Of a stretch of DNA of 64,000 bases, positions 30,995 to 35,775 are shown piece after piece. The translations under genes and the position numbers were made by a program. The first letter of the stretch is position 1. Each line of letters begins with the position of its first letter. The stretch lies in contig NZ_JAEKIW010000006.1 of assembly GCF_016757965.1 (NCBI RefSeq), positions 62,001-126,000 of the forward strand, written 5' to 3'. The notes below the pieces were generated by a model that had not been told where the DNA came from, ran no database searches, and saw nothing but the letters and a program-made list of their open reading frames with translations. This stretch comes from Archaeoglobus neptunius (GTDB lineage: Archaea > Halobacteriota > Archaeoglobi > Archaeoglobales > Archaeoglobaceae).

Positions 30995-31777
30995 CTACTC
31001 CACTTTCTGCATGCACCACTCACCGAATCCTTCCCTGACGTTCTTCTCCCCAACAAAGACCGTGGTGTTCAGTTCATTGATGGAAACGATGGTGGGGACG
31101 AACACGACGCCGTACCTCTGCATAACTTCCACGCAGTCGGCAGTCATATTGCTGACGTTGCAGTAAGTGATGTTGCACATCTCAACCAGTGATTTTACTT
31201 TGCTACAGTGCGGACAATGCGGAGAGAAGAAGTAGTAAACGCCTTGTAGCATGCTTTCGTTTTCGTGCAGGAGGTCGTAGATAGCGGACCTGTTTATCTC
31301 CGCATCGTTGATGCTGATGCTGACGTATCTGGCAACCACAATCGTCGAGTTCCGCTGCACCACCGCAATTTTCTCAGGAAGGGTGTGGTTGAGTTGTATC
31401 ACAAAGCTGAGGTCTCCGGAATTTGCTATCAGCTTTCCGTCATCAGCTTTGAGGCTCATGGAGTCAAGGTTGTTGAGCACAGCAACAAAGGGGTCGATCG
31501 TATCGAAGTCGTCTTTGCTTGCGGCAAGCTTGAACATCCTACCTTCACTCACGATGGTCTTGGTCCCGTTGTCTATTAGAACTGCAGTCCCGTTCTCGAT
31601 CTTCAGAACCCTGTCCGGCTTCACGTAGGTTACTTCGGCTCTGTAACTCTTATTACCCACAATGTAGATCACGTCAGCTTTGAAGGAGTTTATTTTGTTC
31701 CAGTAGTCGTCCACTTGGGGCTGCGCTACACACCCCGCCACGGCTGCGATGAGAAAGAGTATCACAACGCGCCTCAT
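30995..31777 (-). CDS. Lipoprotein with LolA-like domain fused to DsbA-type thioredoxin domain
   Basis: This 260-residue protein begins MRRVVILFLIAAVAGC, a lipoprotein signal with lipid cysteine C16. Residues about 25-150 look like the LolA-like beta sheet of archaeal surface lipoproteins (KADVIYIVGNKSYRAEV, VKPDRVLKI). Residues about 178-255 are a thioredoxin fold with FFSPHCPHC, active site C188-P-H-C191, and cis-proline in VPTI (P228). CPHC is the DsbA-type oxidising motif. ATG 31777 has GGTGG upstream and overlaps the preceding gene stop by 4 bases. Anchored outside the cell, it could form disulfides in the cysteine-rich peptide encoded upstream. That role is inferred. Confidence 0.8.
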   Translation of the reverse strand: MRRVVILFLIAAVAGCVAQPQVDDYWNKINSFKADVIYIVGNKSYRAEVTYVKPDRVLKIENGTAVLIDNGTKTIVSEGRMFKLAASKDDFDTIDPFVAVLNNLDSMSLKADDGKLIANSGDLSFVIQLNHTLPEKIAVVQRNSTIVVARYVSISINDAEINRSAIYDLLHENESMLQGVYYFFSPHCPHCSKVKSLVEMCNITYCNVSNMTADCVEVMQRYGVVFVPTIVSINELNTTVFVGEKNVREGFGEWCMQKVE

Positions 31778-32406: not shown

Positions 32407-33102
32407 TCAACATAGGTGTGCAGCTTTGCATGCAGCATTAGCGCCTTGATCGCAAGCCCGATCTATGCCATACTCACATATGATCGTGCAGGTGATTTCG
32501 CAGATTCCTGCTGCGATGGGATTCTCTATTAGAGCTACGCATATCTCTCCACAAGTTTCTGCACATGCTATGATGCCTCCTGCCGCTGTAGAGCATAATT
32601 TTGAGACTACTGCCTTGCAGATCGAACACTTGTCTGGCAACCAACCAGAGGTATGGACAAATTTCTTTGTCGAATATATCTCCCCACCAGTAGCGTAATA
32701 TATTCTGACGACCTGTCCGTCCAAAATGCCAATCACCGTTGCTTCCCCATATCTGTTCTTGATGTACACCAGCAGACCATTTTTCTTACCTTTCAGTGGA
32801 ACTTTGACGATTTCAGTCGTCACACCCCTGTGACTGACAACCTGCACGATGGCCTTGCTGTAAACCGGTTTCAGGTTCAGATCGCTGAGATGCTCTCTCA
32901 GCATTAAAGAATCCTTGCCGTTGAACACCTGTACGGCTTTAAGGTAGGCGATGGAACCTCGCACGATCGAACTCTTCACGTCGTTCGGAATTGTAACCAC
33001 ACCCGAACAGCTCGGGCAGGAGTTGTTTTCTTCAGCCGCCACCGGCATCACAGCACTCCCGACTAAGACCAGAACTAACATTAAGCTCACCAGTCTTTTC
33101 AT
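32407..33102 (-). CDS. Secreted precursor with C-terminal halocin C8-like cysteine-rich domain
   Basis: This 231-residue precursor has a Sec-type signal peptide (residues 1-23, likely cut after VAA), a CPSC pair at 29-32 and a mostly beta-rich middle region (about 35-155). The C-terminal domain of 73 residues (159-231) has 12 cysteines: 159, 162, 170, 180, 184, 188, 201, 205, 209, 217, 225 and 231. The order of features (CSxCK..., AAGG, I/VC, CEYG, ACKAAHLC end) resembles the archaeal antimicrobial peptide halocin C8, which ends CNRAGLC and is also released from the C-terminus of a larger precursor. Unlike halocin C8 it has no twin-arginine signal. The middle region could be a pro or immunity domain. 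Confidence 0.72.
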   Translation of the reverse strand: MKRLVSLMLVLVLVGSAVMPVAAEENNSCPSCSGVVTIPNDVKSSIVRGSIAYLKAVQVFNGKDSLMLREHLSDLNLKPVYSKAIVQVVSHRGVTTEIVKVPLKGKKNGLLVYIKNRYGEATVIGILDGQVVRIYYATGGEIYSTKKFVHTSGWLPDKCSICKAVVSKLCSTAAGGIIACAETCGEICVALIENPIAAGICEITCTIICEYGIDRACDQGANAACKAAHLC

Positions 33103-33125
33103 ACCATCACCTCATCAACACTGTG
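33055..33125. repeat. 71-bp direct repeat, copy 1
   Basis: This copy covers the ribosome site region and the first 16 codons (signal peptide) of the halocin-C8-like gene. It matches 34808-34878 at 70 of 71 positions. The single difference changes codon 5 (Val here, Met in copy 2). Outside it the two genes are unrelated. Confidence 0.95.
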
Positions 33126-33235: not shown

Positions 33236-33802
33236 TTAAACGACCATGCACGCAACGGTGTAGTTGTTCCACCCCTCCTTCAAGGTAACCTTGTCCAGAT
33301 GACCGTTGAGCCAGAAACCCCAGACGTAGCCCGTATGCATCGGCAAAGTCAGGCCAGACCACTTCGCCCAGATCTCGAACTTTAGGCTGACTCTGTCTGC
33401 ATCTCCGGACATGTAAGCGTACACTTCAGTAGGCTCGTAGTACGATTTGACCTCTGCCGTACTCGGTTTGACGACATCGAGCTTGCTGAAGATCGGAACT
33501 CTGTGCGAATAGTAACCCATCACCGTTGTTCGATTTTTTGTTACGATCTTGAGCATCTTTCCGTGCTCGGTCTCCACAATCTCCATAACTTTCGTCCCAT
33601 TCACCGCAAGGTTTTCCATAACATCGTGGATGGTTCCATCTTCCTTAAGCACTACCGGGACGTAAACCGTCACAGCTTTACTGCAGTTCACAGGCTCGAC
33701 TGTAACGCGATACTCGACGATGTTGACCTGAGCTTGGCTGAGAACGATGATGGCGGCAAAGATAACAGCGGCAATAGCAACAATCCGGAAATTGGGCAGC
33801 AT
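33236..33802 (-). CDS. Exported protein of unknown function
   Basis: This 188-residue protein starts at ATG 33802 with ribosome site GGTGGTGA. It opens with a signal or anchor (residues about 6-27, FRIVAIAAVIFAAIIVLSQA) followed by a beta-rich ectodomain. It has two ectodomain cysteines, in VNCSKA near 40 and at the end in YTVACMVV, able to form one disulfide, and several N-x-T/S sites. No family is recognised. It lies 39 bases after the phospholipase gene on the same strand, so they probably share a transcript, and it is followed by the halocin-C8-like gene. Confidence 0.65.
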   Translation of the reverse strand: MLPNFRIVAIAAVIFAAIIVLSQAQVNIVEYRVTVEPVNCSKAVTVYVPVVLKEDGTIHDVMENLAVNGTKVMEIVETEHGKMLKIVTKNRTTVMGYYSHRVPIFSKLDVVKPSTAEVKSYYEPTEVYAYMSGDADRVSLKFEIWAKWSGLTLPMHTGYVWGFWLNGHLDKVTLKEGWNNYTVACMVV

Positions 33803-33841
33803 CCGATTCACCACCTATTAATAAAAATTTTAAGAAGCTTA

Positions 33842-34855
33842 TCATTTTTCCATTTTCCCCCCTACCTTCTCAGCCAGTGCGTTCGCATACAATTTACTGA
33901 GTTCATCACCGCTTATCTTTACTTCGAACCAGACTGTGTATACTCCCGTCTTTTTGTCGAACTTGCCATGCGGAACCAGAACACCATCTTTTATCAACTC
34001 ACGTCCTACCTCCTTCTTTATTTCCACGATTTGGCGATCGATCTTGGCGATTTTTTCCATTTTTTCCATCGAAGATTTTGCCATTCGCAGATTCGTGAGA
34101 TAATTGTACGACGCATCTATCGACGCTTGCCACCATTTTTCGTAATCCCCAAAAGTGGCCTTAGCTGCAAGATATTTATCCCAGCTAAAAGACATCTGCT
34201 CTGCTACAATTTCTGCCATCAACTCTGTAAACTCCCGGTTTATCTGGTCCTCCGTCGGAATCGGGAAATCACCACCGTATCGCTTTTTGTATTCCTGTAC
34301 AACCGATTTTATGAAGGACGAGTACACTTTAAACTCCCACGGCCAAGGTGCAGCTCCATTTTTCTCGTAGTAAGTAATGCAATCTATGTTGTACTCCACA
34401 AACAGGTGCTGAGGAAGGTTGCTCGGTTCAACACCCTTGTATTCAAGATAGGACTTCCCGTGAGGATATGCCGGAGTTACCCATGATGGCTTCCATCCGT
34501 GGATGTAGTAATCAGACACGTGATGTGTCAACCACCCTGCCGTATAGGCTATTTCTTGATCCGTCGAAGCCCTTTGCCACACGAAACGGTTGAATCTCTC
34601 GTCATAGTGGAAGAGTTGAGCCAGTTTGCTCCATCCCTGCGGTACTGTTACCCCGTCTTTGCCTACGAATATGTCCGGCACAACAGCACCGTTTATGGAG
34701 TCGATTTTGTAAAGATATACCTGCCGTGGAAGTCCGCTTCTATCAGCCAGTTTCTTTACGATGCTGTAATGCGTCGGTCCACCCCAAGCGATTACCGGAC
34801 CAAACATACTCCCGACTAAGACCAGAACTAACATTAAGCTCATCAGTCTTTTCAT
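33842..34855 (-). CDS. Secreted zinc-dependent phospholipase C-like protein
   Basis: This 337-residue protein has a signal peptide nearly identical to the halocin-like precursor (first 23 residues). Cleavage would expose W24 (WGGPTHYSIV), which matches the mature N-terminal tryptophan that binds zinc in bacterial zinc-dependent phospholipase C. Further family features are the PDIF aspartate near residue 61, FHYDE near 85 and GWLTHHVSDYYIHG near 108-121 (HxxxDxxxH). The remaining 200 residues are helical and less conserved. It may act on lipids or another phosphodiester; archaeal lipids differ, so the substrate is open. It heads the secreted-protein gene set. Confidence 0.78.
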   Translation of the reverse strand: MKRLMSLMLVLVLVGSMFGPVIAWGGPTHYSIVKKLADRSGLPRQVYLYKIDSINGAVVPDIFVGKDGVTVPQGWSKLAQLFHYDERFNRFVWQRASTDQEIAYTAGWLTHHVSDYYIHGWKPSWVTPAYPHGKSYLEYKGVEPSNLPQHLFVEYNIDCITYYEKNGAAPWPWEFKVYSSFIKSVVQEYKKRYGGDFPIPTEDQINREFTELMAEIVAEQMSFSWDKYLAAKATFGDYEKWWQASIDASYNYLTNLRMAKSSMEKMEKIAKIDRQIVEIKKEVGRELIKDGVLVPHGKFDKKTGVYTVWFEVKISGDELSKLYANALAEKVGGKMEK

Positions 34856-34878
34856 ACCATCACCTCATCAACACTGTG
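34808..34878. repeat. 71-bp direct repeat, copy 2
   Basis: This copy covers the ribosome site GAGGTGATGGT and the first 16 codons of the phospholipase C-like gene, and matches 33055-33125 except at one base. Both genes therefore share a leader cassette. Confidence 0.95.
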
Positions 34879-35037: not shown

Positions 35038-35775
35038 TTGCACTCAATGTTGCCGCCAAGGAAGCGTGAGATCCTGCATATTTTATCAAAAGCTCCACTG
35101 ACGAACTCTGAAATTTCGAAAGTGGTTGGTATAACCCCAGCAGCGGTTTCGGATCACATGAGAAAGCTTGTTGGTGATGGACTGGTTGAGAAAACCGGTA
35201 AAAAGTTCACCCTGACCCCCAAGGGTCTGATCACTCTCCACACTTCAGAAATTATTGAAAGTACGCTATCTGCGATCGAAAAAGATAGAGAATTCTGGGA
35301 GGAGCACGATCTGACGGCAATTCCATCGCACCTTCTCTTGAGGCTCGGAGAACTCGGGAACTATGAGGTGATAAAAAGTGGAGAAAACGAAATTCTGAAA
35401 CACAAGGAAAGGTTTACCGAAGTCGTGAGAAAATCGAAGTGGATCAGGGCAGTTTTCGGCTTTTTTCTCCCCGACTACCCGCCCCTCCTCACCAGAGTAT
35501 CTCAACATACGGACATATCGGTCGTTGTCAGCAGAGACGTTGCAGTGAAGCTGGAAGACCATCAGGATATTTTGAAAAGTTTCAAAGGAAGGCTGTTCGT
35601 TTGCGATAACATTAAGCTCGTCTGCATAGCGGGCAGCGAGGGACTGTGTCTGGGCTTGTTTCTGAAAAATGGCCAGTACGATGTTCGAAGGGGAATAATC
35701 AGCCACGATAGCAGTGCTGCGTGGTGGGGAAGAGACCTCCACGCTCATTTCATTCGATACTCATACACCTTTTGA
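35038..35775 (+). CDS. HTH regulator with FilR1-type (DUF1724) C-terminal domain
   Basis: This protein of about 245 residues has an N-terminal ArsR/MarR-like winged helix (residues about 5-70; LTNSEISKVVGITPAAVSDH and MRKLVGDGLVEKTG). The rest resembles the archaeal FilR1 middle domain, with VFGFFLPDYPPLL and ISHDSSAAWWGRDLHAHF near the end. TTG 35038 fits the GGTG ribosome site at 8 bases; ATG 35047 is the alternative. It is divergent from the phospholipase/archaeocin set, with a promoter region of 182 bases rich in TTAAG repeats between. It is the likely local regulator. The 3' end overlaps nnr by 26 bases. Confidence 0.8.
   Translation: MHSMLPPRKREILHILSKAPLTNSEISKVVGITPAAVSDHMRKLVGDGLVEKTGKKFTLTPKGLITLHTSEIIESTLSAIEKDREFWEEHDLTAIPSHLLLRLGELGNYEVIKSGENEILKHKERFTEVVRKSKWIRAVFGFFLPDYPPLLTRVSQHTDISVVVSRDVAVKLEDHQDILKSFKGRLFVCDNIKLVCIAGSEGLCLGLFLKNGQYDVRRGIISHDSSAAWWGRDLHAHFIRYSYTF

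Follow-up and report, generated by a model that had tools for sequence, protein, structure and literature searches.

Halocin C8, the closest described system, is made as a 283-residue precursor that is exported by twin-arginine translocation (Tat) and matures into the immunity peptide HalI and a 76-residue halocin (PMC11509114). According to the title of a paper cited there, immunity requires a helix-loop-helix at the N terminus of HalI. Here, we analyzed a 64,000-nucleotide stretch of the Archaeoglobus neptunius genome (contig NZ_JAEKIW010000006.1, positions 62,001 to 126,000), hereafter the window, in which a gene for a 231-residue precursor with a halocin C8-like C-terminal domain was found. 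Compared with ProC8 of haloarchaea (HalI plus HalC8), the window precursor similarly places a putative HalI-type domain ahead of a Cys-rich helical peptide; nine Cys columns are common to most members, and a FilR1-type regulator lies near many of the loci. In contrast, the window precursor has a Sec instead of a Tat signal, a Cys tail after the signal, and 12 rather than 10 Cys residues in its C-terminal domain, and it is accompanied by a linked thioredoxin-fold lipoprotein and additional membrane genes. Because twin arginine is absent, it is not classed as an orthologue of ProC8, but only as a member of the wider family.

Results

The precursor consists of a Sec-type signal, a tail with a CPSC motif, a middle domain (the pro-domain), a linker, and a C-terminal domain with 12 Cys residues (the cargo domain). 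The signal, MKRLVSLMLVLVLVGSAVMPVAA, has KR, a hydrophobic core, and V-A-A ahead of the expected cut, with neither twin arginine nor a lipobox; its Sec type, assigned by inspection, agrees with the initial annotation, which had proposed Sec instead of Tat. That annotation also described a separate C29/C32 pair and 14 Cys residues in total. Both descriptions held, as C29-P-S-C32 was found in the tail after the signal, and the Cys residues were counted at positions 29, 32, 159, 162, 170, 180, 184, 188, 201, 205, 209, 217, 225, and 231. The seven disulfides deduced from this number are possible; however, a redox tail belonging to the pro-region is a better reading of CPSC than a seventh, structural bridge. 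A search of the 57 genomes of the order identified a full-length ortholog, 55% identical, in another Archaeoglobaceae genome (G044), which has CLSC at the position of CPSC. The precursor features observed here are real and beyond chance. Assembly contigs searched with the single precursor protein gave nothing, and the search with an alignment gave only three already-known Archaeoglobaceae metagenome-assembled genomes. Comparison with PDB sequences gave a chance-level match only, and the ratio of nonsynonymous to synonymous substitutions between the window precursor and the G044 ortholog was saturated. Pfam GLMA_C and RUBY_RBDX were dropped as precursor families, their matches being far below the cut-off.

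The cargo domain matched TIGR04449 (halocin_C8_dom) over residues 159-231 with an E-value of 2.5e-4 and 22.0 bits, compared to the cut-off of 24, and scored 24.4 bits in a six-frame search. A cargo model from which the window protein and its ortholog were excluded recovered the window cargo at E 1.1e-6, and at E 3.5e-6 when the Archaeoglobi halocins L038 and AF were also left out. Removal of L038, the ortholog, and the closest Methanosarcina-type members left recovery at only 0.0087. The core Cys columns of the window cargo are common to halocin C8 and others, two Cys being added to those of halocin C8. On this homology, we place the window gene in the halocin C8 family, broadly defined, as a member whose parts are newly combined, and regard its cargo as a predicted halocin C8-like peptide of the antimicrobial type.

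Structure prediction by AlphaFold2 was then used to analyze whether the pro-domain and the cargo domain are separable. In the model of the full precursor, residues 42-149 formed a short strand, two helices (50-60 and 63-71, at the start of the pro-domain), and six strands, with a predicted local distance difference test score (pLDDT) of ~74-95 per ten-residue block. Residues 150-156 of the linker fell below 50, and residues 158-227 were helical at ~46-80; the CPSC pair was located outside the folded domain, in an 18-residue tail of low confidence. Residues 37-157 folded alone gave the same elements, with a mean pLDDT of 87.7 and a predicted template modelling score of 0.81. The alignment held four sequences only, so that the models support the pro-domain well and the cargo only weakly. 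Since the pro-domain folds alone, adopts the same fold within the full precursor, and connects to the cargo through a low-confidence linker, the two are separable by prediction, as proposed earlier; a single inseparable fold is also contradicted by the presence of the pro-domain on other cargo (see below). The middle region had been called beta-rich, which the six strands bear out; two helices precede them. A fold search with the whole precursor model and with the pro-domain against the PDB gave no match at E ≤ 0.001, so the predicted fold gives no function.

The relation of the pro-domain to haloarchaeal HalI became apparent through intermediates. Among 6106 reading frames, an Archaeoglobi pro-domain model that left out the bridging protein L088 matched a halocin precursor of the Methanosarcina type at E 1.8e-4; a Methanosarcina pro-domain model matched L088 at 2.9e-7, and a haloarchaeal pro-region model matched a Methanosarcina-type precursor at 0.0024. 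In profile-profile comparison, the Archaeoglobi set alone gave only 1.2% against the haloarchaeal set, compared to 83% (E 8.9e-6, 104 columns) against L088, Methanosarcina, and haloarchaea combined; a reversed-sequence control gave 0.1%. Furthermore, the window pro-domain opens with a helix pair, which matches the helix-loop-helix named in the cited title by position only. From the Methanosarcina-bridged profile matches and this leading helix pair, the pro-domain is better described as a probable distant HalI relative, linked only through intermediates, and not as the non-haloarchaeal pro-region or different immunity module that was first suggested.

The same pro-domain was observed before different cargo. 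In G037 and G042, proteins (L036 and L037) matched only the first ~150 residues of the precursor and continued into a different C-terminal domain, which in G037 can be identified from PDB relatives as a zinc-dependent phospholipase C (seven of the eight matches listed belong to that family; best E 0.002). A pro-domain profile run over 393 genomes found members in 23 genomes, including those of Archaeoglobaceae (L088, L130), Methanosarcina-type archaea (L128, L135, L042, L044), small genomes of another family (L129, L131), and haloarchaea (L137, L140). The cargo was halocin-like, one of several other Cys-rich domains, or zinc-phospholipase-C-like, and most of the cargo domains seen matched no Pfam or NCBIfam model. 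Conversely, halocin-like cargo in other Archaeoglobi (L038, L039, L040) follows a second pro-region. The pro-domain showed no similarity to this second pro-region, so two unrelated pro-regions exist for halocin-like cargo, and none to the partner protein of the phospholipase. The second pro-region also occurs with a different Cys-rich cargo of 18 Cys (G001, L039 6465-7517), and a neighbouring halocin-like gene has this pro-region type as well. By sequence comparison, the pro-domain is a reusable module with interchangeable C-terminal cargo.

Junction sequences of homologues were inspected by eye for a cleavage motif before residue 159, and no motif common to them was found. W-[LVI]-[PS]-[DT] recurred at the junction in two halocin-like orthologs and two phospholipases, which are two sub-families. 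In the two phospholipases that carry the pro-domain, a Trp is present at the junction (PLW[VI]S), and the phospholipase of the window itself has Trp directly after its signal. Zinc phospholipases C use a free N-terminal Trp as a zinc ligand, so the junction Trp makes sense in the pro-domain phospholipases; in the halocin form, the motif may be chance.

These observations bear on whether the pro-domain instead serves secreted effectors in general, as an export chaperone or a zymogen propeptide, with immunity residing wholly in the small membrane protein encoded downstream. We consider this a real possibility that falls somewhat short of probable. It is favored by the same pro-domain preceding zinc-phospholipase-like and several unrelated Cys-rich cargos, by the junction Trp, from which removal of the pro-domain would activate the enzyme, and by the membrane gene outliving the toxin gene in two decayed loci. 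However, haloarchaeal HalI is reported to confer immunity, which by the cited title depends on its N-terminal helix-loop-helix (PMC11509114), and the window pro-domain opens with a similar helix pair.

We compared the stretch between the signal and the pro-domain across the family. At least two tail Cys were present in 22 of the 23 Sec-exported precursors with Cys-rich cargo, 12 of which had an exact CxxC, compared to none of 14 Tat-exported haloarchaeal precursors (12 plus L137 and L140). Both phospholipase precursors, with the same type of signal and pro-domain, were without the Cys pair. Precursors of the small genomes (L129 62-907, L131 1261-2004) carry CxxC and CxxCH (CSSCH, CTSCH) after the signal, with a haem-binding look. 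A conserved motif of the GGC-x-E-x-W type precedes the twin-arginine signal in several haloarchaeal precursors (L106, L112, L104, L137, L140).

A thioredoxin-fold gene was located within ~2.5 kb of the precursor in nine of 14 Sec-type genomes and in none of 12 haloarchaeal ones (Fisher p 7e-4). Since the species compared are not independent of one another and Tat export coincides with the haloarchaeal clade, the p-values for this linkage are only descriptive; all the genomes compared have thioredoxin-like genes elsewhere. In the window, the linked lipoprotein had Glutaredoxin and Thioredoxin Pfam matches. Its LolA label is a candidate one, by analogy with the homologue in L088 and by gene order, with no direct family match. 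At the L088 locus, thioredoxin shares one protein with a LolA-like domain, and a VKOR-like protein comes next; in Methanosarcina-type loci, its fusion partner is a DsbD membrane domain, and most of these loci have a separate LolA-like lipoprotein gene. A putative dedicated external oxidation route for the window peptide is supported by this genomic context, as is the earlier expectation of extracellular oxidation with a catalyst.

Alternatively, CPSC could be a structural disulfide or a metal site without a role in cargo oxidation, which we think unlikely. The limited occurrence of the exact CxxC and the CxxCH at the same place in L129 and L131, which could bind haem, speak for it. Nevertheless, the tail is predicted to be disordered, the Cys pair is missing with phospholipase cargo and in Tat-exported forms, and a thioredoxin-fold gene is linked in most loci.

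The features of the window are listed in Table 1. Downstream of the precursor, a tight operon encodes two small membrane proteins of 133 and 70 residues and the lipoprotein. The 70-residue protein had no family match. The 133-residue family follows a halocin precursor or a signal-peptide remnant in four loci. In G044, a member follows the ortholog, whereas on contig 8 of the same genome as the window and in G040, the 133-residue gene is open and the precursor upstream is reduced to a signal-peptide remnant; the contig 8 copy of the gene is itself altered at its end. Persistence of this gene beside a decayed precursor is the pattern of a retained immunity gene, making its product a candidate immunity protein. 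Contig 7 carries a further decayed copy, which retains the end of a halocin-like domain. The regions on contigs 8 and 7 (L085 4334-5496, L087 4934-6236) are decayed copies of the same cassette, containing a lipoprotein-thioredoxin remnant with eight stops and remnants of the phospholipase and its partner.

Table 1. Coordinates of the precursor, its parts, and neighbouring features in the window
Feature	Position	Strand	Remarks
Halocin C8-like precursor gene	32407..33102	-	231 residues, ATG start; open reading frame
Sec-type signal peptide, residues 1-23	33034..33102	-	By inspection
C29-P-S-C32 pair in post-signal tail, residues 24-41	33007..33018	-	Sequence; family pattern
Pro-domain, residues 42-149	32656..32979	-	Predicted helix-loop-helix and six-strand meander; probably HalI-related (fold and homology)
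Linker/junction, residues 150-158 (HTSGWLPDK)	32629..32655	-	Presumed processing region; putative cleavage
Halocin C8-like cargo domain, residues 159-231	32410..32628	-	12 Cys, helical
Leader of precursor, 71 bp (ribosome-binding region and first half of signal)	33055..33125	-	99% identical to 34808-34878
Matching 71-bp leader before phospholipase gene	34808..34878	-	Sequence identity
Small membrane protein, 133 residues	31983..32384	-	Candidate immunity protein
Second small membrane protein, 70 residues	31774..31986	-	4-bp overlap with next gene (lipoprotein)
Lipoprotein, C-terminal thioredoxin-fold domain (CPHC), LolA-like N-terminal part	30995..31777	-	Candidate oxidase/isomerase
Secreted/membrane-anchored partner	33236..33814	-	Also behind the phospholipase gene in relatives
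Zinc-dependent phospholipase C-like secreted protein	33842..34855	-	PF00882, E 1.6e-7
FilR1-type regulator	35038..35775	+	Relatives adjoin halocin genes in Archaeoglobi and haloarchaea

The neighbouring phospholipase gene lies ~1.75 kb upstream of the precursor, and its family carries the pro-domain in other genomes (L036, L037). No copies of the 71-bp leader other than these two were found in the genome, and their near identity suggests that the leader recombined recently. The single-pass secreted partner, also found at L036 8999-9643, L037 1221-1877, and L088 6285-6881, could be an inhibitor or a partner of the phospholipase. A helix-turn-helix regulator of the FilR1/HVO_A0261 type adjoins halocin-like genes in L040, L088, L046, L048, L104, L106, L108, and L116, and is possibly a conserved regulator of halocin-like loci.

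Discussion

We propose, as a probable though not firm account taken as a whole, that the window gene encodes a halocin C8-family prepropeptide that is exported by Sec, oxidized outside, kept inactive by its pro-domain, and cleaved. Sec would export the precursor unfolded with its Cys residues reduced. Outside the membrane, the linked lipoprotein, with its putative LolA-like and thioredoxin-fold parts, would help to oxidize the 12 cargo Cys to six disulfides, and the CPSC tail of the pro-region may act as a hand-off or shuffling site during this oxidation. The HalI-related pro-domain would fold by itself, hold the peptide soluble and inactive, and presumably protect the producer. A protease would then cut the linker at 150-158 and free a peptide of ~73 residues, which may act on competitors, and the 133-residue membrane protein may add self-immunity. 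Sequence and structure prediction establish the order and separability of the domains, the homology of both, the gene order of the operon, and the linked oxidoreductase, and the route of oxidation, the cleavage, the killing, and both roles in immunity are proposed from these.

Several observations weigh against this account. Export route cannot be told apart from clade, since every Tat case is haloarchaeal; the exact CxxC occurs in only 12 of the 23 Sec-type precursors with Cys-rich cargo; and the G044 ortholog locus has no linked thioredoxin, so that the catalyst is not a requirement. The model of the cargo is weak (pLDDT ~46-80 from four sequences), there is no shared cleavage motif among the homologues, and the phospholipase cargo shows that the pro-domain is not a halocin-specific immunity protein. 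That the peptide merely has a halocin fold and serves a non-antimicrobial secreted function, as a signal or surface protein, is quite improbable; although no activity data were found outside haloarchaea and the window cargo is acidic (net charge -3), the TIGR04449-type domain is patchily distributed (six Archaeoglobaceae genomes), the cargo is less conserved than the pro-domain (48% versus 56% identity), and there are decayed copies, cargo swapping, a linked membrane gene, and a neighbouring phospholipase.

Methanosarcina-type precursors (L042, L044, L045, L101) share with the window precursor the Sec signal, the Cys tail with CxxC, a related pro-domain, halocin-like cargo, and a LolA-like lipoprotein and/or thioredoxin in the locus, but their thioredoxin is fused to the DsbD membrane domain rather than being part of a lipoprotein, and their small membrane proteins are others. 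Loci of Archaeoglobaceae (L088, L130, L036, L037) share the signal family, the pro-domain, and the gene neighbourhood, and differ in having another Cys-rich domain or a zinc phospholipase as cargo; L088 further has CLSC and a LolA-thioredoxin fusion, with the VKOR-like protein in addition. In concept, the conserved N-terminal part and swappable C-terminal cargo are shared with polymorphic toxin systems. However, there is no large delivery protein, the precursors are small and exported by Sec or Tat, and the immunity genes are only candidates.

A survey of archaeal toxins and halocins by Makarova et al. in 2019 reportedly widened the halocin C8 family to take in diverse archaea as well as some bacteria, and part of its spread is probably already known. 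As far as checked, what is new is the joint pattern of a portable HalI-type pro-domain, a Cys tail tied to the export of Cys-rich cargo by Sec, and a linked extracytoplasmic oxidoreductase. More tentatively, and less likely than not, archaea outside the haloarchaea may have a dedicated extracytoplasmic disulfide-loading line for antimicrobial peptides that are secreted, in which the reusable HalI-type pro-domain with its Cys tail would pass the cargo to LolA-thioredoxin or thioredoxin-DsbD/VKOR; the tail-less pro-domain would be the propeptide of a phospholipase zymogen. If true, export in a folded state by Tat versus an unfolded state by Sec would explain both the Cys tail and the catalyst. 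The pattern gives a testable rule, namely that export route, pro-region Cys, and linked oxidoreductase co-vary across archaeal antimicrobial-type precursors. The halocin immunity domain appears here as a portable pro-domain, and because most cargo domains match no Pfam or NCBIfam model, its profile is a sequence handle for unannotated archaeal peptides. The locus is also a thermophilic system in which to study how disulfides form outside the archaeal cell, a poorly known process.
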